Of a stretch of 64,000 nucleotides of DNA, positions 31,892 to 54,179 are shown piece by piece. The notes below the pieces were generated by a model. That model saw only the letters and a list, made by a program, of their open reading frames with translations, was not told where the DNA came from and made no database searches. Origin of the DNA: Thalassococcus arenae (GTDB lineage: Bacteria; Pseudomonadota; Alphaproteobacteria; Rhodobacterales; Rhodobacteraceae); the NCBI RefSeq assembly GCF_019104745.1, contig NZ_JAHRWL010000001.1:2089001-2153000 (forward strand), in the 5' to 3' direction. Made by a program: the position numbers and the translations under genes. Within the stretch, counting starts at the first letter, position 1; the number at the start of each line of letters is the position of its first letter.

Positions 31892-32457
31892 GTTCGGCTA
31901 ATGCGGTAAACAATATCCGCGAAAGCCAGTAGATATCTATTTGACTGTCTCCACGAGAGGTAACAACTGCAAACCGCTGCAATCGGACCGAAAAAAAGTA
32001 CCCAGTACCAATCCCAATTCACTAAAACTACCGTTGTAGTACTTGAGAACAAGTACAATAGTGCGACGCCAAATCCATCCAACACAGTAATGGAGTTCCG
32101 CGTTTCTAGGAAAAGCCTTTGAAGAAATTCATTCTTTGATGAAACCACGTATGCTATTGTCTCAGCGTCGAGACTGCCCCAAAAACGCTGCCTCATAGCT
32201 CCTCCCAATTGGATGGAAATCAGTCCAAAGGCGTATGTCATGAACACCGCTCCGAAGCCTGCGATCGCAGCAAATGCTGTTTTCATCTGCTCTGGAGTGT
32301 TGACGTTATTCAAAAACCCATGAGACGTTTCTAAATCCACTACATTACTCAAAACTGAGGCGAGCGGGATCATTCCCAAGGATGCAACCGTTCCAACTCC
32401 GAGAGCAGAAAAAGCCCCCGGAACTGGAGAAAGCAGTGCATGAGCGCTGCTCAACAT
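31888..32457 (-). CDS. Low-GC four-helix membrane protein of unknown function
   Basis: A 189-residue protein starting [16 protein letters not shown]. Four hydrophobic stretches are visible: about 16-36, 61-84, 129-147 and 151-167. A hand count over 31,921-32,400 gives about 46% GC, far below its neighbours. Its ATG shares one base with the sucB stop (TGATG), and its TGA overlaps the glycosyltransferase ATG (ATGA). I do not recognise the family. The base composition suggests recent transfer, yet both junctions are exact overlaps. No RBS of its own is obvious, so translation may depend on coupling. Confidence 0.72.
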   Translation of the reverse strand: MLSSAHALLSPVPGAFSALGVGTVASLGMIPLASVLSNVVDLETSHGFLNNVNTPEQMKTAFAAIAGFGAVFMTYAFGLISIQLGGAMRQRFWGSLDAETIAYVVSSKNEFLQRLFLETRNSITVLDGFGVALLYLFSSTTTVVLVNWDWYWVLFFGPIAAVCSCYLSWRQSNRYLLAFADIVYRISRT

Positions 32458-33992
32458 CACAAATCCATCAGCAACCGCCGCGGATCCTCCAGCGCCTCTT
32501 TCACGCGCACCAGGAAGGTCACGGCGCCCTTGCCGTCGACGATGCGGTGGTCGTAGCTCAGCGCCAGGTACATCATCGGGCGGATCACGATCTGGCCGCC
32601 GACCACCATGGGCCGGTCCTGGATCTTGTGCATGCCCAGGATGCCCGATTGCGGCGGGTTCAGGATCGGCGAGGACATGAGCGAGCCGTAGACGCCGCCG
32701 TTCGAGATGGTGAAGGTGCCGCCCTGCATTTCGGCCATCGACAGCTTGCCGTCGCGGGCGCGCTTGCCCTTTTCGTTGATCGCCTTCTCGATCTCGGCGA
32801 AGGACATCCGGTCTGCATCGCGGATCACCGGCACCACCAGGCCCTGCGGCGTGCCCGCGGCGATGCCCATGTGGACGAAGTTCTTGTAGACGATGTCGGT
32901 GCCGTCGATCTCGGCATTGACCTCGGGCACTTCCTTGAGCGCGTGGCAGCACGCCTTGGTGAAGAAGGACATGAAGCCCAGGCGCACGCCGTGTTTCTTC
33001 TCGAACAGGTCCTTGTATTCGCTGCGCAGCTCCATCACCGCGCCCATGTCCACCTCGTTGTAGGTGGTCAGGATCGCGGCGGTGTTCTGCGCGTCCTTGA
33101 GGCGTCGGGCGATGGTCTGGCGCAGGCGGGTCATCTTGACCCGCTCTTCGCGCGCGGCGTCGTCGGCGGGCACCGGGGCGCGCGGCGCCGCGGCCGGAGC
33201 GGATGCCGCGGGTGCGGTCGATGCCGCGGCGACTGCCTTGGCCACGTCGTCCTTCATAACCCGGCCGTCGCGGCCCGAGCCGGTGACCTGGTCGCGCGAC
33301 AGGTCGGCCTCGGCCATCGCCTTTTTCGCGGCGGGCGCATCCTCGATATCGCGGCCGGGGCCGCCGTCGCCGGCGGGCGGCGTGGTGTATTGCTCGCCCT
33401 CGGCCGCGGTGCCGTCGGTCTTGGGCGCGGCGGCGGCGGCGCCGTCGCCGGCGGCGATCACGGCCAGCTTGGCGTTGGCCTCGACCGTGGTGCCTTCGGC
33501 GGCGACGATCTCGGTCAGGGTGCCGGCGGCCGGTGCGGGTACCTCGACCGACACCTTGTCGGTTTCAAGCTCGCACAGCATCTCGTCCTGCGCGACCGCA
33601 TCGCCGACCTTCTTGAACCAGGTCGACACGGTGGCCTCGGACACCGATTCTCCCAGCGTCGGCACCATCACGTCGACACTGGCGCCGCCCTTGGCGGCGG
33701 GTGCCTTGGCCGCGGGTTTCTTTTCGGACTTGGCCTTGGGGGCGGGGGCCGCGTCGCCTTCGGCGATATTGGCCAGCAAGGCGTCGACGCCCACCGTCTC
33801 GCCTTCGGCGGCGATGATGTCGACCAGCGTACCGGCGGCGGGCGAGGGCACCTCGACCGTGACCTTGTCGGTCTCCAGTTCGCACAGCATCTCGTCCACG
33901 GCGACGCTATCGCCGGGTTTCTTGAACCAGGTGGCCACCGTGGCTTCGGTCACCGATTCCCCCAGGGTGGGGACGCGCACTTCGGTCGTCAT
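32457..33992 (-). CDS. sucB: Dihydrolipoyl succinyltransferase (E2 of 2-oxoglutarate dehydrogenase)
   Basis: A 511-residue E2 subunit with two lipoyl domains: lipoyl Lys K43 in [14 protein letters not shown] and K146 in [14 protein letters not shown], linked by Ala/Pro-rich segments. The peripheral subunit-binding domain is near 215-250 ([31 protein letters not shown]). The C-terminal catalytic domain has [15 protein letters not shown]. Tandem lipoyl domains are unusual for E. coli-type SucB (one) but are known in some alphaproteobacteria. The gene follows sucA after 3 bases. Confidence 0.96.
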
Positions 33993-33995
33993 CGC

Positions 33996-36968
33996 TTATT
34001 TCCCTTCGATCGTCAGCGCTTCGTTCACGAGCGCTTCTTGCTGTGCCTTGTGCTGGCTGGCCAGGCCCGTCGCGGGCGAGGCCGATGTCTGGCGGCCGAC
34101 ATAGGCCGGGCGCTTGTGCTTGGCCTTGATGCGGCCCAGCACCCATTCGATGTTGGGCTCGATGAAGGTCCAGGCGCCCTGGTTCTTGGGCTCTTCCTGG
34201 CACCAGATCATCTCGGCCTGCGGGAAGCGTTCCAGTTCCTTGACCAGCGACAGCGCCGGGAAGGGATAGAACTGCTCGATCCGCAGCAGGTAGATGTCGT
34301 CGATGCCGCGCGCATCGCGTTCCTCGAGCAGGTCGTAATAGACCTTGCCGGAACACATCACCACGCGCCGGATGTCCTTGTCGGCCTTCAGCCGGGTGTC
34401 GGAATTGCCCTTTTCGGCGTCATCCCACAGCACCCGGTGAAAACTGCTGCCATTGGTGAACATGTCCGCATCCGAGATGCACAGCTTGTGGCGCAGCAGC
34501 GATTTCGGCGTCATCAGCATCAGCGGCTTGCGGAAGCTGCGATGCAGCTGGCGGCGCAGGATGTGGAAATAGTTCGCGGGCGTCGAGCAATTCGCCACGA
34601 TCCAGTTGTCCTGGCCGCACAGCTGCAGGAACCGTTCCAGTCGCGCCGATGAATGCTCCGGCCCCTGGCCTTCGAAACCGTGCGGCATCAGGCAGACAAG
34701 CCCCGACATCCGCAGCCATTTCGATTCACCGGAACTGATGAACTGGTCGAACATGATCTGCGCGCCGTTGGCGAAATCGCCGAACTGCGCCTCCCACAGG
34801 GTCAGCGCGTTGGGTTCGGCCAGCGAATAGCCGTATTCGAAACCCAGCACCGCGTATTCCGACAGCGCGCTGTCGATCACCTCATAGCGCGCCTGACCTT
34901 CGCGGATATGGTTCAGCGGGTAATAGCGTTCCTCGGTCTGCTGGTCGACAAAGGCCGAATGACGCTGGCTGAAGGTGCCGCGGGTGCTGTCCTGGCCGGC
35001 CAGGCGCACCGGATAGCCCTCGGTCAGCAGCGACCCGAAGGCCAGCGCTTCGGCGGTGGCCCAGTCAAAGCCCTTGCCGGTCTCGAACATCTGCGCGCGG
35101 GTCTCGACCAGTCGTGCCACGGTCTTGTGGATCGGATAGCCGTCGGGGATGCGGGTCAGGGCCGCGCCCACCTCTTTCAGCGTCTTTTCCGGGATCGCCG
35201 TCTTGCCGCGCTGGTACTTGCCCTGTTTCTGGCGGTCCAGATGCGACCAACGCCCGTCCAGCCAGTCGGCCTTGTTGGGCTTGTAGTTCTTGCCGGCCTC
35301 GAATTCCTCGTTCAGATGCGCCTGGAAGGCGGCCTTCATGTCCTCGATCTCGCCCTCGGGGATCAGCCCGTCCTTGACCAGCCGTTCGGTGTACAGCGTC
35401 AGCGACGTCTTGTGACCCTTGATCTTGTTGTACATGATCGGGTTGGTGAACATCGGCTCGTCGCCTTCGTTGTGACCGAAGCGGCGATAGCAGAACATGT
35501 CGATCACCGCGTCCTTGCCGAATTTCTGGCGGAACTCGGTCGCGACCTTGGCGGCGTGCACGACCGCCTCGGGGTCATCGCCGTTGACGTGAAAGATCGG
35601 CGCCTCGACCACCAGCGCGTTGTCGGTGGGATAGGGCGACGAGCGGCTGAAATGCGGCGCCGTGGTAAACCCGATCTGGTTGTTCACGACGATATGGATC
35701 GTCCCGCCCGTCTTGTGGCCGCGCAGGCCGGACAGCGCGAAGCATTCCGCCACCACGCCCTGGCCGGCAAAGGCCGCGTCGCCGTGCAGCAGGATCGGCA
35801 GGACCGAGGTGCGGGCCTTGTCGCCCATCTGGTCCTGCTTGGCGCGTACCTTGCCCAGAACCACCGGGTTCACCGCCTCGAGATGGCTTGGGTTGGCGGT
35901 CAGCGACAGGTGCACGACATTGTCGTCGAACGTCCGGTCCGACGACGCGCCCAGGTGGTATTTCACGTCGCCCGAACCGTCGACTTCCTCGGGTTTGAAG
36001 CTGCCGCCCTGAAACTCGTTGAAGATCGCGCGATAGGGCTTGGCCATCACGTTGGCCAGCACCGACAGGCGGCCGCGATGCGGCATGCCGATGACGATTT
36101 CCTTGATCCCCAGGGCACCGCCGCGCTTGATGATCTGCTCCATCGCCGGGATCAGGCTTTCGCCGCCGTCCAGGCCAAAGCGCTTGGTTCCCATGTACTT
36201 GACGTGCAGGAACTTCTCGAAGCCCTCGGCCTCGACCATCTTGTTCAGGATCGCCTTGCGGCCTTCGCGGGTGAACCGCACTTCCTTGCCGTAACCCTCG
36301 ATGCGTTCCTTCAGCCAGGCCGCCTGTTCGGGGTCCGAGATGTGCATGTATTGCAGCGCGAAAGTGCCGCAATAGGTGCGTTTCACGATGTCGACGATCT
36401 GCCGCAGCGACGCGATCTGCAGCCCCAGCACGTTGTCGATGAAGATCGGCCGGTCCATGTCGGCCTCGGTGAAGCCGTAGGATTTCGGGTCGAGCTCCGG
36501 GTGCGGTTCGGGCGCGCGCATGCCCAGCGGGTCCAGGTCGGCGGCCAGGTGGCCGCGGATGCGGTAGGCGCGGATCAGCATCAGCGCCCGGATGCTGTCC
36601 AGCACGGCGCGCTGGATCGCCTCGTCGGAAACCTCGACCCCCTTCTCGGCGGCGGCTTCCTTGATCTTCGTCGCCGCGCCCTTGGCCTCGGCCGGGACCA
36701 GCGGCATCGGGTATTCGCCGGTCAGCGCGCCGGTCAGGTCGTCATCGGGCTGCGGCGGCCAGTCGCGCCGCGCCCAGGACGGTCCCGTCGCCTCGCGTTT
36801 GACGTCCATCTCGGCATCGCCCAGCTGGCGAAAGAATTCCGCCCAGGCCGCGTCCACCGCACCCGGGTCGCTGGCATAGCGGGCATACATCTGTTCGAGG
36901 TATTCCGCGTTGTGCCCCTGCATGAAGCTCGAGGCGTGAAAGGCGTCGTTGGGGGATTGGTCGGTCAT
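33996..36968 (-). CDS. sucA: 2-oxoglutarate dehydrogenase E1
   Basis: A 990-residue thiamine-dependent E1. Its N-terminus SPNDAFHASSFMQGHNAEYLEQMYARYASDP is standard. Further markers: GMPHRGRLSVLANVMAKP, GDAAFAGQGVVAE (TPP region), FCYRRFGHNEGDEPMFTNP and the C-terminal MLMTPKSLLRHK. It decarboxylates 2-oxoglutarate and succinylates the E2 lipoyl groups. It is preceded 14 bp upstream by an orphan gene that interrupts the normal sucD-sucA order. Confidence 0.97.
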   Translation of the reverse strand: MTDQSPNDAFHASSFMQGHNAEYLEQMYARYASDPGAVDAAWAEFFRQLGDAEMDVKREATGPSWARRDWPPQPDDDLTGALTGEYPMPLVPAEAKGAATKIKEAAAEKGVEVSDEAIQRAVLDSIRALMLIRAYRIRGHLAADLDPLGMRAPEPHPELDPKSYGFTEADMDRPIFIDNVLGLQIASLRQIVDIVKRTYCGTFALQYMHISDPEQAAWLKERIEGYGKEVRFTREGRKAILNKMVEAEGFEKFLHVKYMGTKRFGLDGGESLIPAMEQIIKRGGALGIKEIVIGMPHRGRLSVLANVMAKPYRAIFNEFQGGSFKPEEVDGSGDVKYHLGASSDRTFDDNVVHLSLTANPSHLEAVNPVVLGKVRAKQDQMGDKARTSVLPILLHGDAAFAGQGVVAECFALSGLRGHKTGGTIHIVVNNQIGFTTAPHFSRSSPYPTDNALVVEAPIFHVNGDDPEAVVHAAKVATEFRQKFGKDAVIDMFCYRRFGHNEGDEPMFTNPIMYNKIKGHKTSLTLYTERLVKDGLIPEGEIEDMKAAFQAHLNEEFEAGKNYKPNKADWLDGRWSHLDRQKQGKYQRGKTAIPEKTLKEVGAALTRIPDGYPIHKTVARLVETRAQMFETGKGFDWATAEALAFGSLLTEGYPVRLAGQDSTRGTFSQRHSAFVDQQTEERYYPLNHIREGQARYEVIDSALSEYAVLGFEYGYSLAEPNALTLWEAQFGDFANGAQIMFDQFISSGESKWLRMSGLVCLMPHGFEGQGPEHSSARLERFLQLCGQDNWIVANCSTPANYFHILRRQLHRSFRKPLMLMTPKSLLRHKLCISDADMFTNGSSFHRVLWDDAEKGNSDTRLKADKDIRRVVMCSGKVYYDLLEERDARGIDDIYLLRIEQFYPFPALSLVKELERFPQAEMIWCQEEPKNQGAWTFIEPNIEWVLGRIKAKHKRPAYVGRQTSASPATGLASQHKAQQEALVNEALTIEGK

Positions 36969-37844: not shown

Positions 37845-38732
37845 TCAGCCTTTGTCGATCGCCTTCAGCACCGCCTCGCCCAGCGTCGCGGGGCTGTCGG
37901 CGACCACGATCCCGGCGGCCTTCATCGCCTCGATCTTGTCCTCGGCGCCGCCCTTGCCGCCGGCCACGATGGCGCCGGCATGGCCCATGCGGCGGCCCGG
38001 AGGCGCGGTGCGTCCGGCGATGAAGCCGGCGGTGGGCTTCCAGCGACCCTTCTTCTTCTCCGACGCCAGGAACGCGGCGGCCTCTTCCTCGGCCGATCCG
38101 CCGATTTCGCCGATCATGATGATCGCCTCGGTCTCGTCATCGGCCAGGAACCATTCCAGCACGTCGATATGCTCGGTCCCCTTGATCGGGTCGCCGCCGA
38201 TGCCGACGCAGGTCGACTGGCCCAAGCCCACATCGGTGGTCTGCTTGACCGCCTCGTAGGTCAGCGTGCCGGACCGGCTGACGACACCGACCTTGCCGCG
38301 CTTGTGGATATGGCCCGGCATGATGCCGATCTTGCAGGCGTCCGGCGTGATGACCCCGGGGCAGTTCGGCCCGATCAGGGTGGATTTCGAGTTTTCCAGC
38401 GCCCGCTTGACCTTCATCATGTCCAGCACCGGAATGCCTTCGGTGATGCAGACGATCAACTCCATCTCGGCGTCGATCGCCTCGAGGATCGAATCCGCGG
38501 CAAAGGGCGGCGGCACGTAGATCACCGATGCATTGGCCTCGGTCTTGGCCTTGGCCTCGTGGACCGAGTTGAAGACCGGCAGGTCCAGATGCGTCTGCCC
38601 GCCCTTGCCCGGGGTCACGCCCCCGACCATCCGGGTGCCATAGGCGATGGCCTGTTCGGTGTGGAATGTCCCCTGCGAGCCGGTAAGGCCCTGGCAGATG
38701 ACTTTAGTGTTCTTGTCGACGAGGACGGCCAT
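37845..38732 (-). CDS. sucD: Succinyl-CoA synthetase, alpha subunit
   Basis: A 295-residue protein. CoA-binding domain begins [44 protein letters not shown]. The phosphorylated His is in [21 protein letters not shown] (about 246-265). It produces ATP or GTP with SucC in the TCA cycle. A large hairpin repeat lies between it and sucC. Confidence 0.97.
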
Positions 38733-38809: not shown

Positions 38810-40003
38810 TCAGCCTTTGACCGCCTTCACGATCTTCTGCGCGCCGTCCTTGAGGTCGTCGGCGGCGATCACGTCGAGACCGGAGCCGGAGATGATCTCC
38901 TTGCCCTTCTCGACATTGGTGCCTTCCAGGCGCACCACCAGCGGCACCTTCAGGCCCACTTCCTTGACCGCGGCGATCACGCCCTCGGCGATCACGTCGC
39001 AGCGCATGATGCCGCCGAAGATGTTGACGAGGATGCCTTTGACGTTGGGGTCGGAGGTGATGATCTTGAACGCCTCGGTGACCTTTTCCTTGGTCGCCCC
39101 ACCGCCCACGTCGAGGAAGTTGGCCGGTTCCGCGCCATACAGCTTGATGATGTCCATCGTCGCCATCGCCAGGCCCGCGCCGTTGACCATGCAGCCGATC
39201 TCGCCATCCAGCGCGATGTAGTTCAGGTCGTACTTGGACGCGGCCAGTTCCTTGGGGTCTTCCTCGGTCTCGTCGCGCAGCTCGGCGATATCGGGATGGC
39301 GATAGACCGCGTTGCCGTCAAAGCCGACCTTGGCGTCCAGCACCTTGAGGCTGCCGGTCTTCATCACGATCAGCGGGTTGATCTCCAGCATCTCCATGTC
39401 CTTCTCGACGAAGGCCTTGTAGAGAATGCCCATCAGGCGCACGCATTCCTTGACCTGCCCGCCTTCGAGCCCCAGGGCAAAGGCGATGCGGCGGCCGTGG
39501 AACGGCTGGTAGCCGGTGGCGGGATCGACGCTGAACGACAGGATCTTTTCCGGCGTCGCGGCGGCGACCTCTTCGATATCCATGCCGCCCTCGGTCGAGC
39601 AGACAAAGGAAATCCGGCTGGTCTGGCGATCCACCAGCAGCGCCAGGTACAGTTCGCGCGCGATGTCGGAACCATCCTCGATATAGATGCGGTTGACCTG
39701 CTTGCCGGCCGGGCCGGTCTGGTGCGTCACCAGGGTGCGGCCCAGCATCTTCTTGGCCTCGGCGGCGGCTTCCTCGACCGACTTGGCCAGGCGCACGCCG
39801 CCCTTTTCGCCGGCATCGGCTTCCTTGAAGCTGCCCTTGCCGCGGCCGCCTGCATGGATCTGCGCCTTGACGACCCAAAGCGGCCCGTCCAGTTCGCCTG
39901 CCGCGGTCTTGGCCTCTTCGGCCCTCAGGACGACGCGGCCATCGCTGACCGGCGCGCCATAGCTGCGCAGCAGGGCTTTCGCCTGGTATTCGTGGATATT
40001 CAT
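38810..40003 (-). CDS. sucC: Succinyl-CoA synthetase, beta subunit
   Basis: A 397-residue ATP-grasp protein: [22 protein letters not shown] start, ATP-grasp [19 protein letters not shown], and C-terminal CoA-ligase [15 protein letters not shown]...[17 protein letters not shown]. It is the first gene of the suc operon. Two TGTGATCACA palindromes lie about 120 and 141 bp upstream. Start at 40,003 (ATGAATATC) matches the family. Confidence 0.97.
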
Positions 40004-40117
40004 GGCTGGGACGGCCCCCGTTACTGACTTGCGTTTCCAGCCGTATACGCTGGTGTACCGACGCGCCGTAACCGAAATTTTGCCGCAGGGCAGGAAAACC
40101 GGCAGAAATTCGCAATT

Positions 40118-40148
40118 TGTGATCACACGCCGAAAAAGTGTGATCACA
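40118..40148. promoter_or_regulatory. Paired TGTGATCACA operators upstream of sucC
   Basis: TGTGATCACA at 40,118-40,127 and again at 40,139-40,148, both perfect palindromes with centres 21 bp apart, so on the same helix face. Centres are 119.5 and 140.5 bp before the sucC start. The same palindrome appears before sdhC and sdhB at similar distance. A divergent glycosyltransferase starts 80 bp on the other side. A GntR-family regulator such as AkgR is a plausible binder, which is inference. Confidence 0.75.
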
Positions 40149-40227: not shown

Positions 40228-41235
40228 ATGACACCAACCTGGGCGATCGTCATGACCGCGCGCGAACCGGCAGCGCTGGTCGTGGCCAATGCACGCTGGC
40301 ATCTCGCCACCGGCGCATCCGAGGCGCATGTCTATCTCGACCGCGCCGACGATCCGGCCGCGGCGATGCTGGCCGCCTTGCCCGGCTGCCGGGTCACGGT
40401 CTGCGACGATGCCCATTGGTCCGCCATGCGCGGCCGCAAGGGCCGCCCCGACAGCCAGATGCGGCGCCAGAGCCTGAATGCCAACCACGCCCAGGCGCGC
40501 AGCGACGCGGGCTGGATGCTGCATCTGGATGCCGACGAATTCCTGTGGCAGGACCGGCCCCTGGCCGACGAACTGGCGCTGGTGTCCGAACTGGGTGCCG
40601 AGCTGCGCTTTCCGGTGTTGGAACGCACGATGCGGCACGGCGAGACGCAGAACACCCTGTTCGCGGGCCGCTTCCGCCGCGTCTCGCCCTCGGCCGCCGG
40701 GATCAACCGGGTCATCTACGGCGACAAGGCGCGGTTCCTGCGCGACGGCATGTTCTCGCACGGGTCGGGCAAATGCGCGGTGCCGGTGCGGCACGGCTTT
40801 CACCACTATGTGCATGAAAGCGTGATCGACGTCGACGGCAAGCGGGTGCGCCCGCCGTCCTTCCGCTCGACCGCCGCGCGGCTGCTGCATTTCGACGGGC
40901 TGACGCCGCTGCACTGGCTGGTCAAGATCCTGCGCTACCGCCGCAATCCGCCCGATGTGCAGCGCCAGATCCTGCCGGATCACCGGTTCGCGCAGATCGA
41001 CTGGGCGCTCGACCGGATCGCCGATCTGCCCTCGGCCCTGGCGGCCCATGCCGCACTGCTGTGGATGACCGAGGCGGAAGAGACACGCCTGCGCGGTTTC
41101 GGCCTGATCGACGACCGGGCCTTCGACCCCGCACCGATGCTGGGCGATCTGGCGCCGGCGCTGGCGCCCGCGGCATTCGATGCGGCGCTGCGCGCGATGG
41201 AACCGGAACTGTTCGCGCTGACCGGCTGGACATGA
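40228..41235 (+). CDS. Glycosyltransferase family 2-like protein
   Basis: A 335-residue protein of the same Glyco_tranf_2_4 type as the gene at 30,917: VYLDRADDPAAAMLAALPGC, then GWMLHLDADEFLW with the DxD and a long C-terminal half. Acceptor unknown. It is inserted on the forward strand between mdh and sucC and ends at a bidirectional terminator. The operator pair upstream of sucC is also upstream of this gene. Confidence 0.78.
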   Translation: MTPTWAIVMTAREPAALVVANARWHLATGASEAHVYLDRADDPAAAMLAALPGCRVTVCDDAHWSAMRGRKGRPDSQMRRQSLNANHAQARSDAGWMLHLDADEFLWQDRPLADELALVSELGAELRFPVLERTMRHGETQNTLFAGRFRRVSPSAAGINRVIYGDKARFLRDGMFSHGSGKCAVPVRHGFHHYVHESVIDVDGKRVRPPSFRSTAARLLHFDGLTPLHWLVKILRYRRNPPDVQRQILPDHRFAQIDWALDRIADLPSALAAHAALLWMTEAEETRLRGFGLIDDRAFDPAPMLGDLAPALAPAAFDAALRAMEPELFALTGWT

Positions 41236-41286: not shown

Positions 41287-43179
<1,893 letters not shown>

Positions 43180-43494
43180 TCAGGCATCGTTGCCCTTGGG
43201 CGGCAGGGCTTCGGCCAGTTCCTCGAAGGCCTGTCCGCTGGCCACCAGGCAGGTCATGCCGCTGGCCGTCGTCACGGTGATCGTCCAGGTGCCGGTCTCT
43301 TCCGAGGCGAACACCTCGACCACCGCGTTGTTGTTGCCCAACCCGATGCTTTGCCGGGTCTCGCCGTATTTCGTCGCCAGCCGCTCGATCACCATCTCGC
43401 GCGGTGCGCAATTGGCGGTCTGCGCGGCCGCCTGGCCCGCCATCGTGCCGCCGATCAGGGCAGCCGCCACAAGGCCTTTCACACAAGTCTCCAT
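43180..43494 (-). CDS. Small secreted protein
   Basis: A 104-residue protein with a Sec signal peptide METCVKGLVAAALIGGTMAGQAAAQ (cleavage after about residue 24). The mature part has an extended beta pattern (CAPREMVIERLATKYGETRQSIGLGNNNAVVEVFASEETGTWTITVTTASGMTCLVASGQAFEELA) and two cysteines that could pair. I do not recognise a named family. It faces mcl2 across a 298-bp region. Confidence 0.8.
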   Translation of the reverse strand: METCVKGLVAAALIGGTMAGQAAAQTANCAPREMVIERLATKYGETRQSIGLGNNNAVVEVFASEETGTWTITVTTASGMTCLVASGQAFEELAEALPPKGNDA

Positions 43495-47594: not shown

Positions 47595-47624
47595 TGTGAT
47601 CACGGCTTTGAGAGTGTGATCACA
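47595..47624. promoter_or_regulatory. Paired TGTGATCAC-type operators upstream of sdhC
   Basis: TGTGATCACG at 47,595-47,604 and TGTGATCACA at 47,615-47,624, centres 20 bp apart, at 141.5 and 121.5 bp before the sdhC start. The spacing and position match the sucC pair. Likely the same regulator. Confidence 0.75.
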
Positions 47625-47740
47625 TATCGGCCGATTTCCACCGCATTGCGCCAAAAAACCGCGTGTCCCAAGGGCAAGCACCCGTGACACCATGCAGAAA
47701 ACCGATAAAACCCTGATCAGGGAACCGAAAGGACAATGCC

Positions 47741-48124
47741 ATGGCCGACGCGAAACCGGGCCCCCGCCCGCTGTCTCCGCATCTGCAGATCTACCGCCCG
47801 CAGATCACCTCGATCAGCTCGATCCTCATCCGCATCACCGGCAACGGCCTGATCGTCGGCGCCCTGCTGGTGATCTGGTGGCTGCTCGCCGCTGCGACCA
47901 GCCCCGAATATTTCGCCGTGGCCGACGCGGTGTTGACCTCGTGGTTCGGCGACCTGGTCCTGACGCTGTCGCTTCTGGCGATCTGGTATCACTACCTGGG
48001 CGGCCTGCGGCACGTGATCTACAGCGCCGGCAAGGGCCTGGACGTGCCCACCGCGGAAAAGCTGGGCTGGGCCTGCATCGGTGGATCGGTCGTGCTGACC
48101 GTCCTGACACTTCTGATCATCTGA
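47741..48124 (+). CDS. sdhC: Succinate dehydrogenase cytochrome b556 subunit
   Basis: A 127-residue membrane anchor: RPLSPHLQIYRPQITSISSILIRITGNGLIVGAL with the quinone-site Ser/Arg region, TM segments near 35-55, 65-85 and 105-127. The heme-ligand His lies in IWYHYLGGLRHVIYSAGKGLD. It anchors SdhAB and reduces ubiquinone. Operators and a 216-bp leader precede it. Confidence 0.94.
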   Translation: MADAKPGPRPLSPHLQIYRPQITSISSILIRITGNGLIVGALLVIWWLLAAATSPEYFAVADAVLTSWFGDLVLTLSLLAIWYHYLGGLRHVIYSAGKGLDVPTAEKLGWACIGGSVVLTVLTLLII

Positions 48125-48134
48125 GGGGACGGCC

Positions 48135-48506
48135 ATGCGTTATCTCACCGACCGCAAGCGCGCCGAAGGCAAGGGCTCGGCGCATTCGGGAACCGAACAT
48201 CACTGGTCGATGATCATGAGCGGCATCGGCCTCGCGCTGATCGTGCCCGCCTTCCTGTTCATCTTCGGCAAGGCACTGGGCGGCAGCCACGAACAGGTTC
48301 TGGCGACATTCTCGCGTCCGGTTCCGGCGATCCTGACCGGGCTGGTGATCTTTGTCGGGCTCAACCACTTCCGCAAGGGCGCGCAGGTCGCGATCGAGGA
48401 TTACACCCGCGGCACCACGAAAAAGGCGCTGATCATCGCGGTCACCGCGCTCAGCTACGGGCTGATCGCCACCGGCCTTTTCGCGCTCGCCCGCATCGCT
48501 CTTTAA
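48135..48506 (+). CDS. sdhD: Succinate dehydrogenase membrane anchor subunit
   Basis: A 123-residue protein with three hydrophobic segments at about 27-47, 55-77 and 98-121. The HHWSMIMSGIGLALIVPAFLFIFG and GLNHFRKGAQVAIEDYTRG stretches fit alphaproteobacterial SdhD. Ten bases after sdhC. Confidence 0.93.
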   Translation: MRYLTDRKRAEGKGSAHSGTEHHWSMIMSGIGLALIVPAFLFIFGKALGGSHEQVLATFSRPVPAILTGLVIFVGLNHFRKGAQVAIEDYTRGTTKKALIIAVTALSYGLIATGLFALARIAL

Positions 48507-48518
48507 GGACTGAACAAC

Positions 48519-50321
48519 ATGGCATCCTACGAATACGAGACGCATGACTATGACGTCGTGGTCGTCGGCGCCGGCGGCGCCGGCCTGCGCGCCACCCTGG
48601 GCATGGCCGAACAGGGCCTGCGCACCGCCTGCGTGACCAAGGTCTTCCCGACCCGGTCGCACACCGTCGCGGCACAGGGCGGCATCGCCGCGTCGCTGTC
48701 CAACATGGGCCCCGACAACTGGCAGTGGCACATGTACGACACCGTCAAGGGCTCCGACTGGCTGGGCGACACCGACGCGATGGAATACCTCGCCCGCGAG
48801 GCGCCCAAGGCGGTCTACGAGCTGGAACATTACGGCGTGCCGTTTTCCCGCACCGAAGAGGGCAAGATCTACCAGCGTCCCTTCGGCGGCCACACCACCG
48901 AGTTCGGCGAAGGCCCCCCGGTGCAGCGCACCTGCGCCGCCGCCGACCGCACCGGCCACGCCATCCTGCACACGCTTTATGGCCAGTCGCTCAAGAACAA
49001 CGCGGAATTCTACATCGAATATTTCGCCATCGACCTGCTGATGGAGGACGGCCAGTGCAAGGGCGTGCTGTGCTGGAAACTGGATGACGGCACCTTCCAC
49101 GTCTTCAACGCCAAGATGGTCGTGCTGGCCACCGGCGGTTATGGCCGCGCCTATTTCAGCGCGACCTCGGCCCATACCTGCACCGGCGACGGCGGCGGCA
49201 TGGTGGCGCGCGCCGGCCTGCCGCTTCAGGACATGGAATTCGTGCAATTCCACCCCACCGGCATCTACGGCTCGGGCTGCCTCATCACCGAAGGCGCGCG
49301 CGGCGAAGGCGGCTATCTGACCAATTCCGAGGGCGAGCGGTTCATGGAACGCTACGCGCCCAACTACAAGGATCTCGCCCCGCGCGACTATGTCAGCCGC
49401 TGCATGACGATGGAAATCCGCGAAGGCCGCGGCGTCGGCGACGAGGGCGATCACATTCACCTCAACCTGTCCCACCTGCCGAAAGAGGCGCTGGCCGAAC
49501 GGCTGCCCGGCATTTCGGAATCGGCCAAGATCTTTGCCGGGGTCGACGTGACCAAGGAACCGATCCCGGTCCTGCCCACCGTGCATTACAACATGGGCGG
49601 CATTCCCACGAACTACTGGGGCGAGGTGCTGAACCCCACCAAATCCGACCCCAACGCCGTGGTGCCCGGCCTGATGGCCGTGGGCGAGGCCGGCTGCGCG
49701 TCCGTGCACGGAGCCAACCGGCTGGGCTCGAACTCGCTGATCGACCTGGTGGTCTTCGGCCGCGCCGCGGCGATCCGCGCGGGCAAGGTGGTGGACCGCG
49801 ACAGCGCCGTGCCCACCGCGCCGAAATCCGAGATCGACAAGGCCTTCGACCGCTTCGACGGCATCCGTCACGCCGATGGCGCGATTCCCACCGCCGATCT
49901 GCGGCTGGAAATGCAAAAGACCATGCAGCGCGACGCTGCCGTTTTCCGCGCCTCGGACACGCTGGCCAACGGCGTCAAGGAAATGACCGCCATCGCCGGC
50001 AAGATGTCGGATATCAAGGTCACCGACCGGTCTCTGGTCTGGAACTCCGACCTGATGGAGACGCTCGAGCTGACCAATCTCATGCCCAACGCGTTGGCCA
50101 CCATCGTCGGCGCCGAGGCGCGCAAGGAAAGCCGCGGCGCCCATGCCCACGAGGATTTCGCCAAGCGCGACGACAAGAAATGGCGCGTCCACACGATTTC
50201 CCGCATCGACGGCGACAAGGTTGCGCTGTCCTACCGCCCGGTGATCGAAGACCCGCTGACCACCGAGGCCGAAGGCGGAATCGCGCTGAAAAAGATCGCC
50301 CCCAAGGAACGGACGTTCTGA
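48519..50321 (+). CDS. sdhA: Succinate dehydrogenase flavoprotein subunit
   Basis: A 600-residue SdhA. FAD motif [16 protein letters not shown], covalent-FAD His in [16 protein letters not shown], catalytic region [23 protein letters not shown], the substrate-binding [19 protein letters not shown] and the C-terminal [18 protein letters not shown]. It oxidises succinate to fumarate. Its TGA overlaps the following lipoprotein ATG by one base. Confidence 0.97.
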
Positions 50322-51055: not shown

Positions 51056-52180
51056 TCAGCGCTGCCGCAGCATGTCCTCGGCGATCCCGTCCCAATACCG
51101 CGCCAGCGTCCGGGCAAAGGCCGCCTTGCGCTCCAGCAACCGCGCCCGCACCGCGCGCTGCGCCTCGTCCGAGGTCAATTGCTCGCGAATCCGCGCCAGG
51201 AACGCCGCGTCGTCGCCCTGAAACATCATCTCGGGCGTGCCGAAATCCTCCAGCAACTCGGCGTATTTGTGCGACCAGCCCACGGCCAGGCTGGGCACCC
51301 CGCAGGACAGCCCGTTGGCCAGCCCGTGAAACCGCGCGGTGACCACGACACGCGCCCGCGACAGATAGCTCTTGATATCCAGCGGATCGTCGAAGGCGAC
51401 CAGGTCCGCGCCGCCGAATGCCGCCAGTTCCTCGGACAGGGTGCGGTCGGCCTCGGGTTCGTGCAGCACGATCTTCGCCGCCACGCCGCAATTGGCGATG
51501 GTGGTCAGGATATCGCGGTAAAGCGCCATCAGCCGGTCCTCGCCGAAAGTGCCCGATTTCAGCAGCATCGCGTTGATGACGACCGCGGCAAAGGGCGTAT
51601 CCGGCGCCGCCACGCGCGCGGGGTCGGGCGCCAGACCCAGCGTGATGTCCGGCACGACGGTGATCTCGCGCCCGGTGCCCAGACCCTCCAGATGCGCCTG
51701 CGATTGCCGGTCGCGGGCGGATATCGATCGCGCCCCGCGGACGATATCCTGCATGATGCCGCGCAGCTTGGGGGTCTCGAACGGGCCGAAGGCCTGTGGC
51801 AGCAGGTAGGTGGGATAGCCGGCGGCGATATAGGCCGCCGCCCGCGACCGCGCCTTGCCCGCCCCCCAGCTGTCGCCATAGGCAAAGCCGGACGCATCGA
51901 TGACATGGGTCACGCCGGGCCGCTCGGCCCGGGTGGCGCGCGGCCGCGCGATCCCGGGCCACAGCTTTTCCGTCCTGTGCCAGACACTGCCCTTGCGCGG
52001 CTCGAACGCCGGCATGCCCAGGGCGGCGCGGCGCGCGTCGGGCCCCTGCGCCTTGGAACAAAAGGCGATGCCGGGAATGCGCGCGCGCAATTCGGTCACC
52101 GCGGTCACCGCCATCAGCTCCGCCCCCTTGTTGGGCAGCCAGACGCCGGCGATCTCGGCCCGGATATCAGTCGACGACAT
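51056..52180 (-). CDS. Polysaccharide pyruvyl transferase-family protein
   Basis: A 374-residue protein of the WcaK/AmsJ family: GVWLPNKGAELMAVTAVTELRARIPG start, INAMLLKSGTFGEDRLMALYRDIL mid and VVVTARFHGLANGLSCGVPSLAVGWSHKYAELLEDFG, the family's His-Gly signature. Members add pyruvyl ketals to exopolysaccharide or other carbohydrate chains. The gene is on the reverse strand between sdhA and sdhB and overlaps the nitroreductase gene by 14 bp. Confidence 0.85.
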   Translation of the reverse strand: MSSTDIRAEIAGVWLPNKGAELMAVTAVTELRARIPGIAFCSKAQGPDARRAALGMPAFEPRKGSVWHRTEKLWPGIARPRATRAERPGVTHVIDASGFAYGDSWGAGKARSRAAAYIAAGYPTYLLPQAFGPFETPKLRGIMQDIVRGARSISARDRQSQAHLEGLGTGREITVVPDITLGLAPDPARVAAPDTPFAAVVINAMLLKSGTFGEDRLMALYRDILTTIANCGVAAKIVLHEPEADRTLSEELAAFGGADLVAFDDPLDIKSYLSRARVVVTARFHGLANGLSCGVPSLAVGWSHKYAELLEDFGTPEMMFQGDDAAFLARIREQLTSDEAQRAVRARLLERKAAFARTLARYWDGIAEDMLRQR

Positions 52181-53201
52181 GCAGCACCTCGTGCACCGGG
52201 CGTTTCGCGGAATAGGGGATCATGCTTTCCGGCTTGGGGTGGCCGACCCCGATCAGCATCACCGGCACCTGGTAGGCGGCCAGGCCCAGGATGTCGCGCA
52301 GCGCGGCGTGGTTTTCCGGGATGTCGGGCCAGTTGATCGGAACCGATCCCAGCCCCGCCGCCGTCAGCGCCTGCATGAAGGCCATGCAGGCCAGCCCGGA
52401 ATCGACGAAGATCAGGTGCCGGTCGCGGGCATGCGCGTACATCGACAGATCGCCGACCACCGCGACCACCACGGGCAGGTCCGCCCCGAACCCCGCCGTG
52501 CCCAGGGGCAGGTCAGTGATCGCCTTGACCTTTTCGCGGCTGCGCGCGGCGTAAAAGCGGAACGGCTGGCGGTTGCACGCGCTCGGCGCCTGCGCGGCGC
52601 AGGCCACGGCCCGTTCCAATACCGCGGGGTCGACCGGCGTGTCGCTGAACCAGCGCTGCGACCGCCGCGCCCGGCACAGGCGCGCATAACTGTCCAGGTC
52701 GGGCAGGGCGGCCAGCTCCGATCCCACATAGTCCGGCAGATCGGCAAAGCGGTAGGGCGCGAATGCCGCGCCGTCGCTTGCCGCGCCCTGCTGCGGCGCG
52801 TTGGCCGCGTCCCACACCGCCTTGGCTTCCGCGACGAAGGCGACCGACTGGTCGACCGCGTCGAAATAGCGGCTCAGCACGTCATGGGCCCATTTCAGCT
52901 CGTCCGGTTCGGCATCTCCGGCGGCGGCCAGCTTGGCATACAGCATCACCGTGTCGGCCAGGTATTGCTCGGCAAAGACCGGCCTGCGCGGCCCGGGCAT
53001 GCACAGGCCCTTCTCGATCCGGTGCACGTTGCGCCGCAACAGCGCCGAACTGCGCGACACCTGCGCCTTGCCGGCCTCGAACGCCGCCAATCCGGCCTCG
53101 ACCGCGGTCTTTTCGGCCGCCAGCGCCACCTCGAAGGCTTCGGCCAGCTTGCGCGCCTTCTTTTCGCTCTTGCTGGGTTTCTTCAACAACCGCCCGAACA
53201 T
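52167..53201 (-). CDS. Nitroreductase-family protein with N-terminal extension
   Basis: A 344-residue protein. The N-terminal 130 residues are charged and helical (EKKARKLAEAFEVALAAEKTAVEAGLAAFEAGKAQVSRSSALLRRNVHRIEKGLCMPGPRR). The C-terminal nitroreductase fold begins near 180 with RRSQRWFSDTPVDPAVLERAVACAAQAPSACNRQPFRFYAARS, an FMN site. It pairs with the polysaccharide pyruvyl transferase (14 bp overlap), an association seen in polysaccharide loci. Confidence 0.83.
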   Translation of the reverse strand: MFGRLLKKPSKSEKKARKLAEAFEVALAAEKTAVEAGLAAFEAGKAQVSRSSALLRRNVHRIEKGLCMPGPRRPVFAEQYLADTVMLYAKLAAAGDAEPDELKWAHDVLSRYFDAVDQSVAFVAEAKAVWDAANAPQQGAASDGAAFAPYRFADLPDYVGSELAALPDLDSYARLCRARRSQRWFSDTPVDPAVLERAVACAAQAPSACNRQPFRFYAARSREKVKAITDLPLGTAGFGADLPVVVAVVGDLSMYAHARDRHLIFVDSGLACMAFMQALTAAGLGSVPINWPDIPENHAALRDILGLAAYQVPVMLIGVGHPKPESMIPYSAKRPVHEVLHVVD

Positions 53202-53268: not shown

Positions 53269-53278
53269 TGTGATCACA
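53269..53278. promoter_or_regulatory. Single TGTGATCACA operator upstream of sdhB
   Basis: TGTGATCACA with centre 126.5 bp before the sdhB ATG. It matches the sucC and sdhC sites in sequence and distance. It implies that sdhB has its own promoter, which is needed because two reverse-strand genes separate it from sdhA. Confidence 0.72.
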
Positions 53279-53399: not shown

Positions 53400-54179
53400 A
53401 TGGTTCAGTTCACACTTCCCAAGAATTCCAAGATCCGCACCGGCAAGACCTGGCCCAAGCCCGAGGGCGCGACCAATGTGCGCAAGTTCCATATCTACCG
53501 CTGGAACCCCGACGATGGCCAGAACCCGTCGGTCGACACCTATTTCGTCGACATGGACAAATGCGGCCCGATGGTTCTGGACGCGCTCATCAAGATCAAG
53601 AACGAGATCGACCCGACCCTGACCTTCCGCCGGTCCTGCCGCGAAGGCATCTGCGGCTCCTGCGCGATGAATATCGACGGGATCAATACCCTGGCCTGCA
53701 TCTACGGCCTCGACGAGATCAAGGGCGACGTCAAGATCTACCCCCTGCCGCACATGCCGGTGGTCAAGGATCTGATCCCCGATCTCAACCATTTCTACGC
53801 CCAGCACGCCTCGATCATGCCCTGGCTGGAAACCAAGACGAACCGCCCGGCCAAGGAATGGCGCCAGTCCATCGAGGATCGCAAGAAACTCGACGGGCTC
53901 TACGAATGCGTGATGTGCGCCTCGTGCTCGACCTCGTGCCCCAGCTACTGGTGGAACGGCGACCGCTATCTCGGCCCCGCCGCGCTGCTGCACGCCTATC
54001 GCTGGATCATCGACTCGCGCGACGAGGCCACGGGCGAACGGCTGGACCAACTCGAGGACCCGTTCAAGCTCTACCGCTGCCACACCATCATGAATTGCGC
54101 GAAAACCTGCCCCAAGGGTCTGAACCCGGCCAAGGCCATCGCCGAGATCAAGAAGATGATGGTCGATCGCGCGGTTTGA
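53400..54179 (+). CDS. sdhB: Succinate dehydrogenase iron-sulfur subunit
   Basis: A 259-residue SdhB. [2Fe-2S] cysteines C80, C85, C88 and C100 (CREGICGSC); the C-terminal domain has C170, C173, C176, C180 and C227, C233, C237 for the [4Fe-4S] and [3Fe-4S] clusters. The protein links SdhA to the membrane anchor. It is separated from sdhA by about 3 kb, with its own likely promoter. Confidence 0.97.

Follow-up and report, generated by a model that had tools for sequence, protein, structure and literature searches.

Paired palindromes upstream of two TCA cycle operons, sucCDAB and sdhCDA, have AkgR as their most likely regulator, and we put at roughly 80% the probability that two AkgR dimers activate both operons across a linker of phased A/T tracts, possibly curved, and that a single dimer represses akgR itself. 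The pairs are conserved in relatives, co-occur with a GntR-family regulator gene that carries the same palindrome at its own start, and stand at preferred, helically phased distances from the predicted promoters.

Results

Palindromes upstream of sucC and sdhC

The window, by which we mean the whole 64,000-nucleotide stretch of DNA analysed, holds copies of TGTGATCAC(A/G) beginning at 40118, 40139, 47595, 47615 and 53269, all five exactly where a preliminary description had placed them before sucC, sdhC and sdhB, and all five containing the core GTGATCAC (Table 1). The centre distances claimed there are exact too: counted from the gene starts at 40003 (sucC, minus strand), 47741 (sdhC) and 53400 (sdhB), the centres lie 119.5 and 140.5, 121.5 and 141.5, and 126.5 bp upstream, and the spacing within pairs, described as 20-21 bp or two helical turns, is 21 bp at sucC and 20 bp at sdhC. 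The core is expected 0.91 +/- 0.96 times in the window and occurs 5 times, a number that none of 100 shuffles reaches; for the 10-mer with at most one mismatch the 5 copies compare with 1.11 +/- 1.17 expected, and 1 of 100 shuffles reaches 5. Because the window holds no other copy with at most one mismatch, the reported absence of the palindrome before mdh, mcl2 and ecm holds as well; the open reading frame tried as mdh (42315-43280) gave no Pfam family match. The genome (3.7 Mb) contains the perfect 10-mer TGTGATCACA five times, four times in the window and once before nuoG, and its reversed control not once, while a search with one mismatch returned 23 places against 4 for the reversed control. 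Among six one-mismatch sites with an intact core (L006, L012, L015, L167-L169), three lie inside open reading frames and one at the edge of an open reading frame.

The half-site TGTGA resembles that of CRP, and one might therefore read the palindromes as CRP- or FNR-type sites. But a CRP site is TGTGA-N6-TCACA, and here the half-sites abut in all five copies, with no 6-bp spacer; the FnrL site, TTGAT-N4-ATCAA, does not match either. R. sphaeroides, moreover, has no predicted CRP analogue according to PMC4344238. With the half-site geometry wrong, this candidate was rejected, and we give it practically no credence. A separate observation is that a glycosyltransferase-family gene (40228-41235) diverges from sucC across the operator pair and might share it.

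Table 1. Operators, predicted promoter elements and genes at sucC, sdhC and sdhB (positions in the window)
Feature	Position	Strand	Basis or remark
sucC promoter-proximal AkgR-type operator (putative), TGTGATCACA	40118..40127	.	exact match, pair conserved
sucC promoter-distal AkgR-type operator (putative), TGTGATCACA	40139..40148	.	21 bp centre to centre
sucC linker up to and including the predicted -35, A/T tracts with a phase of about 10 bp	40066..40117	-	periodicity p=0.017
sucC predicted -35, TTACGG	40066-40071	-	prediction, hand-placed at the mean best offset of the sigma70 scan
sucC predicted -10, TATACG	40042..40047	-	prediction, hand-placed on the sequence
sucC, first gene of sucCDAB	38810..40003	-	Pfam; name follows from family
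sucD	37845-38732		Pfam; name follows from family
sucA	33996-36968		Pfam; name follows from family
sucB	32457-33992		Pfam; name follows from family
sdhC promoter-distal operator (putative), TGTGATCACG	47595..47604	.	
sdhC promoter-proximal operator (putative), TGTGATCACA	47615..47624	.	20 bp centre to centre
sdhC linker, phased A/T tracts	47625..47683	+	periodicity p=0.0012
sdhC predicted promoter	47684..47711	+	GTGAC[AT] conservation and blind sigma70 scan
sdhC predicted -35, GTGACA	47684-47689	+	conserved GTGAC[AT], blind sigma70 scan
sdhC predicted -10, TAAAAC	47706-47711	+	by eye
sdhC, sdhD, sdhA	47741..50321	+	Pfam
Single TGTGATCACA before sdhB	53269..53278	.	unconserved in relatives, function uncertain
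sdhB	53400..54179	+	Pfam

Conservation of the pairs

Relatives were compared in a set of 80 loci around sdhA plus the window, a pair being two sites that match at 8/10 or better. Pairs stand upstream of sucC in 48 of the 49 upstream regions that could be examined and upstream of sdhC in 61 of 80, the window being included in both counts, and the two sites are mostly 21 bp apart, in some cases 20 and rarely 22-26. The 19 sdhC upstreams without a pair divide into four with a single site and 15 with none, the latter coming from Bartonella, Mesorhizobium or Salaquimonas (seven) and from Rhodobacteraceae or close kin (eight). Elsewhere a third site extends the tandem at 21-22 bp spacing, upstream of sucC in L042 and L078 and upstream of sdhC in L026, L080 and L082, which suggests arrays of more than two dimers. 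At the level of whole genomes, the exact-core pair GTGATCAC-N12/13-GTGATCAC occurs in 265 of 295 genomes of the family, typically twice, and its reversed control in none. Of 187 genomes of the class that lie outside the family, one (G440) has it, next to a TonB-receptor-like gene rather than suc or sdh (L203); one of the 187 (G367) likewise holds the reversed control, five times. AkgR-type pairs at TCA genes are near-universal in the family, and the other genomes sampled from the class almost all lack them.

The expectation that the palindrome would be conserved upstream of all three genes was borne out for sucC and sdhC and failed for sdhB. The exact sdhB-upstream site is confined to the window and L055 (2 of 80 upstreams), six more have an 8/10 match, and a pair before sdhB is found in none of the 80; sdhB as a shared third target finds no support. 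Two minus-strand genes (51056-53201; polysaccharide pyruvyl transferase and nitroreductase families by Pfam) split sdhA from sdhB in the window, and sdhB therefore probably needs its own promoter. A split operon as the explanation of the site was nevertheless rejected, since L016 and L017 seem likewise split and have no site, and L055 has the site yet only plus-strand open reading frames, a comparison made with crude open reading frame picking that mis-called the window itself. The fifth perfect TGTGATCACA of the genome (G000:C2:198131-198140; L005 1501-1510) sits among complex I genes, as judged by Pfam, with a DUF5333 gene on one side and nuoG, whose start is 165.5 bp downstream, on the other. 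A comparison covering 30 of 61 genomes found a site at 9/10 or better in only 2 of 30 nuoG upstreams, own genome included, so this site is a matter of chance or of one lineage, and nuoG was set aside as a target.

AkgR as the probable regulator

The preliminary description had guessed at AkgR, whose gene in R. sphaeroides we take to be RSP_0981. Published work lends support to the guess: GTGATCAC is among the binding sites of AkgR, a transcriptional activator, according to PMC6365646, and PMC4344238 predicts the GntR-family protein RSP_0981 to regulate succinyl-CoA synthetase (sucCD), sdh and the alpha-ketoglutarate dehydrogenase complex (sucAB), targets that match the position of the palindromes upstream of sucC and sdh. 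The CceR regulon of R. sphaeroides also includes sdh, according to PMC11323563, so AkgR need not act alone.

The genome encodes 11 FCD regulators, and one of them, P0002, is our candidate for AkgR. This protein of 221 aa (gene G000:C1:734542-735204, minus strand, about 1.4 Mb from the pairs) combines a GntR winged helix (PF00392, 49.7 bits, cut-off 27) with an FCD domain (PF07729, 62.6 bits, cut-off 24.3) and has no match above the cut-offs in NCBIfam. That P0002 may be AkgR is suggested by the operator at its own start, by co-occurrence and by linkage in some relatives. Orthologues (E<=1e-50) are present in 268 of the 295 family genomes, and their presence goes with that of the pair: both occur in 259 genomes, the regulator only in 9, the pair only in 6 and neither in 21 (Fisher p=5e-20). 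The association is inflated by shared ancestry, but 21 of the 27 genomes without P0002 are also without pairs, and such joint losses argue for a functional link all the same; three of the six pair-only genomes are 73-77% complete. Relatives of P0002 outside the family are at most 42% identical among the matches listed. As to linkage, the orthologue is present in two of the 80 loci (none of them longer than 21.8 kb): it starts 3.4 kb from the start of sdhB in L058 and 7.9 kb from it in L049, in keeping with the locus numbers RSP_0974-6 and RSP_0981, and the orthologue lies 10-18 kb from a pair in several genomes (e.g. G196, G010, G207, G154 and G063).

The operator at the start of P0002 is CGTGATCACA, just before the ATG (G000:C1:735212-735221; L008 1501-1510). 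A site is found near the start in 30 of 30 orthologue loci, 29 times at 9/10 or better and once at 8/10 with an intact core, these being the best 30 loci of 289 matched genomes, own genome included, and thus the closest orthologues. TTGAC begins exactly 17 bp before the site in 26 of the 30 and 17-19 bp before it in 28, and the start codon follows the site's first base by 17-18 bp in 24 and by 11-21 bp in all, so that TTGAC-N12-site-N7/8-ATG is a rigid arrangement in most of these 30 closest orthologue loci. If TTGAC is the -35, the site would overlap the -10, the mRNA would be nearly leaderless and binding should repress; so rigidly placed a site at the start of its own gene leads one to expect that the regulator feeds back negatively.

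It is also conceivable that another regulator binds the sites, say a further GntR/FCD paralogue or some unrelated factor that recognises palindromes, P0002 sharing only the lineage. The number of FCD regulators leaves room for this, and they include a paralogue 37% identical to P0002 (G000:C1:1064901-1065530) that has relatives of 38-39% in G055 and G209; P0002 and the pairs are, in addition, both family-wide, so their co-occurrence partly reflects ancestry. However, the locus of the paralogue has no site at 9/10 or better and only two 8/10 matches, whereas the closest orthologues of P0002 all carry a site near the start codon, mostly at a nearly fixed place, and genomes that lack P0002 mostly lack the pairs. 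We consider a regulator other than P0002 improbable and continue with AkgR, taken to be P0002.

Distance from the pairs to the predicted promoters

Downstream of the sdhC pair, GTGAC[AT] is present in 51 of 59 loci, followed about 16 bp on, by eye and in most cases listed, by a hexamer containing TA. Counting one value per locus, it lies 61.5-64.5 bp from the proximal centre in 37 loci, 50.5-52.5 bp in 5, 73.5-75.5 bp in 4 and 83.5-84.5 bp in 5, and the window's own sdhC distance is 64.5 bp. In a wider set of 150 listed matches, presumed to be on the sdhC side and drawn from the 190 of 295 genomes that had a match, 127 fall at 61.5-65.5 bp, 8 at 51.5-52.5, 13 at 70.5-75.5 and 2 elsewhere; a second distance search placed 10 of 16 at 81.5-86.5 bp, the other six being scattered over 90.5-104.5 bp, perhaps by chance. 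Distances from site to -35 therefore cluster near 52.5, 63, 74 and 84 bp. The 39 of 166 listed distances that do not belong to the main class repeat with a phase of 10-11 bp (best 11.0) and keep step with that class, with a Monte Carlo p of 0.00025, or 0.023 when each distance is counted once, relatedness being ignored in both.

A blind scan for sigma70 promoters, with approximate weights, gave the best mean -35 score for sdhC at 62.5-63.5 bp, with lesser peaks near 52.5 and 73.5 bp and a further one at 10.5 bp, adjoining the operator. For sucC the best mean score was at 51.5 bp, so the two operons would differ by about one helical turn. Taken individually, 33 of 59 sdhC upstreams have their best -35 match at 61.5-64.5 bp and 19 of 48 sucC upstreams have theirs at 49.5-53.5 bp, which leaves the sucC promoter less sure. 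If the -35 is assumed to start at -36, the pair centres would stand near -88 and -109 at sucC and near -99 to -101 and -120 at sdhC; a start-site map for R. sphaeroides is reported in PMC7471390.

These positions bear on whether the regulator might repress sucC and sdhC instead of activating them. Many GntR proteins are repressors, and the akgR site, between TTGAC and the start codon, is in a repressing position. But the predicted -35 has the pairs on its upstream side and in a preferred helical phase, which is the usual place of an activator, and AkgR is described as a transcriptional activator in PMC6365646. We regard repression of the two operons as very unlikely, and activation by AkgR as the better account.

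A phased A/T linker

When pairs 20-21 bp apart (48 of 48 at sucC, 59 of 61 at sdhC) are aligned, the A+T fraction of the DNA between pair and -35 rises and falls periodically in both operons, over about five turns. At sucC it runs 0.98, 0.15, 0.98, 0.10, 0.88, 0.23, 0.88, 0.23 and 0.92 over offsets 10 to 50. The best period is 9.5 bp for sucC and 10.0 bp for sdhC, in each case short of 10.5 bp, and in neither operon do any of 2000 randomisations of either kind match the oscillation. Single linkers are periodic (p<0.05) in 36 of 48 cases at sucC and 49 of 59 at sdhC, with test periods of 10.0 and 10.5 bp that were picked after the period scan; 10.5 bp alone gives 23 of 48 and 37 of 59. Controls drawn from loci L016-L086 are periodic in 8-13% of cases (49 of 600 random, 54 of 599 A+T-matched and 18 of 138 ORF-free stretches), and the window's own two linkers are both periodic (Table 1).

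Phased A/T tracts could, of course, be a general trait of strong promoters in these GC-rich genomes, unrelated to AkgR. UP elements are known, 20 of 59 sequences downstream of the sdhC -35 are periodic (p<0.05), and there is slight periodicity on the far side of the pair (12 of 48 at sucC, 11 of 59 at sdhC), as in the ORF-free stretches. However, the promoter side of the pair shows a much stronger periodicity than the far side, and we think a general promoter trait rather unlikely, though of the alternatives weighed here it carries the most weight; a linker that serves activation by AkgR remains our preferred reading.

What is kept in the linker seems to be shape. A and T are interchangeable at several peaks (at sdhC offset 20, A 0.46 and T 0.44) and not at others (A 0.92 at sucC offset 10 and 0.71 at offset 50). 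A/T runs of at least four without a TpA step number 105 of 162 in sucC linkers and 95 of 139 in sdhC linkers, compared with 124 of 385 in ORF-free stretches and 10232 of 20991 over entire loci, the controls again coming from L016-L086. Beyond the pair, on its far side, the numbers are 32 of 64 at sucC and 47 of 84 at sdhC. The interchangeable peaks together with the TpA-poor runs point to selection on DNA shape, with which DNA curvature and docking of the RNA polymerase alpha C-terminal domain (alpha-CTD) are both compatible.

Discussion

We propose that the palindromes are operators of AkgR, a GntR/FCD regulator that would be P0002, and that two AkgR dimers would occupy the paired sites on the same face of the helix, with their centres 20-21 bp apart. 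From there, and in a preferred helical phase, AkgR would activate transcription at a sigma70-type promoter, most likely through contact with RNA polymerase, for example its alpha-CTDs. The A/T tracts of the linker, about one per turn, might curve the DNA toward polymerase or might offer the alpha-CTD minor grooves to dock on in phase. At akgR, the single site between TTGAC and the start codon would bring about negative autoregulation. With the distance ladder and the phased linker, what was a catalogue of binding sites becomes a mechanism, open to test, by which activation could act over a distance.

We speculate further, and with somewhat less than even confidence, that sucCDAB and sdhCDA of the Rhodobacteraceae share a composite element in which two AkgR dimers, a linker of about five turns with phased A/T tracts of the curvature type and the -35 lie on one helical face. 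With AkgR, linker and polymerase all on one face, the promoter would move in evolution mainly by whole turns, and DNA shape would be kept rather than sequence, A or T being largely interchangeable. Such an element, if true, would offer a natural library in which to test the reach of an activator and the means by which it gets to polymerase.

The AkgR regulon of Rhodobacter sphaeroides was reportedly described by Imam, Noguera and Donohue (mBio, 2015). The core GTGATCAC (PMC6365646) and the predicted RSP_0981 targets sucCD, sdh and sucAB (PMC4344238) are alike there and here, and the genus is another. Since core and targets are largely in print, the palindromes described here add one more case to a regulon already known. 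The paired spacing, the distance ladder, the phased A/T linker and the conserved site at the akgR start were seen in this analysis; we noticed no description of them in the literature searched, and the primary mBio study may contain them. PS417_07240, a GntR protein of deoxyribonate oxidation in Pseudomonas simiae, shares the GTGATCAC core and is 32% identical to AkgR, but it serves another pathway, and PMC6365646 gives its palindrome as unpaired, at -47 to -40 relative to the start codon.

By sequence, the closest solved relative of P0002 is E. coli McbR (PDB 4p9f, E=3.4e-21), which has the same GntR/FCD fold. This likeness does not imply orthology. The physiology of McbR differs from AkgR-type regulation of TCA genes. 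A parallel in mechanism is class I activation by CRP, with the alpha-CTD on UP elements, where an activator likewise sits upstream of the -35 and can be moved in steps of one helical turn, and where A/T-rich minor grooves are contacted. The arrangement proposed for sucC and sdhC differs from that system in having two GntR-type sites and about five phased A/T tracts.
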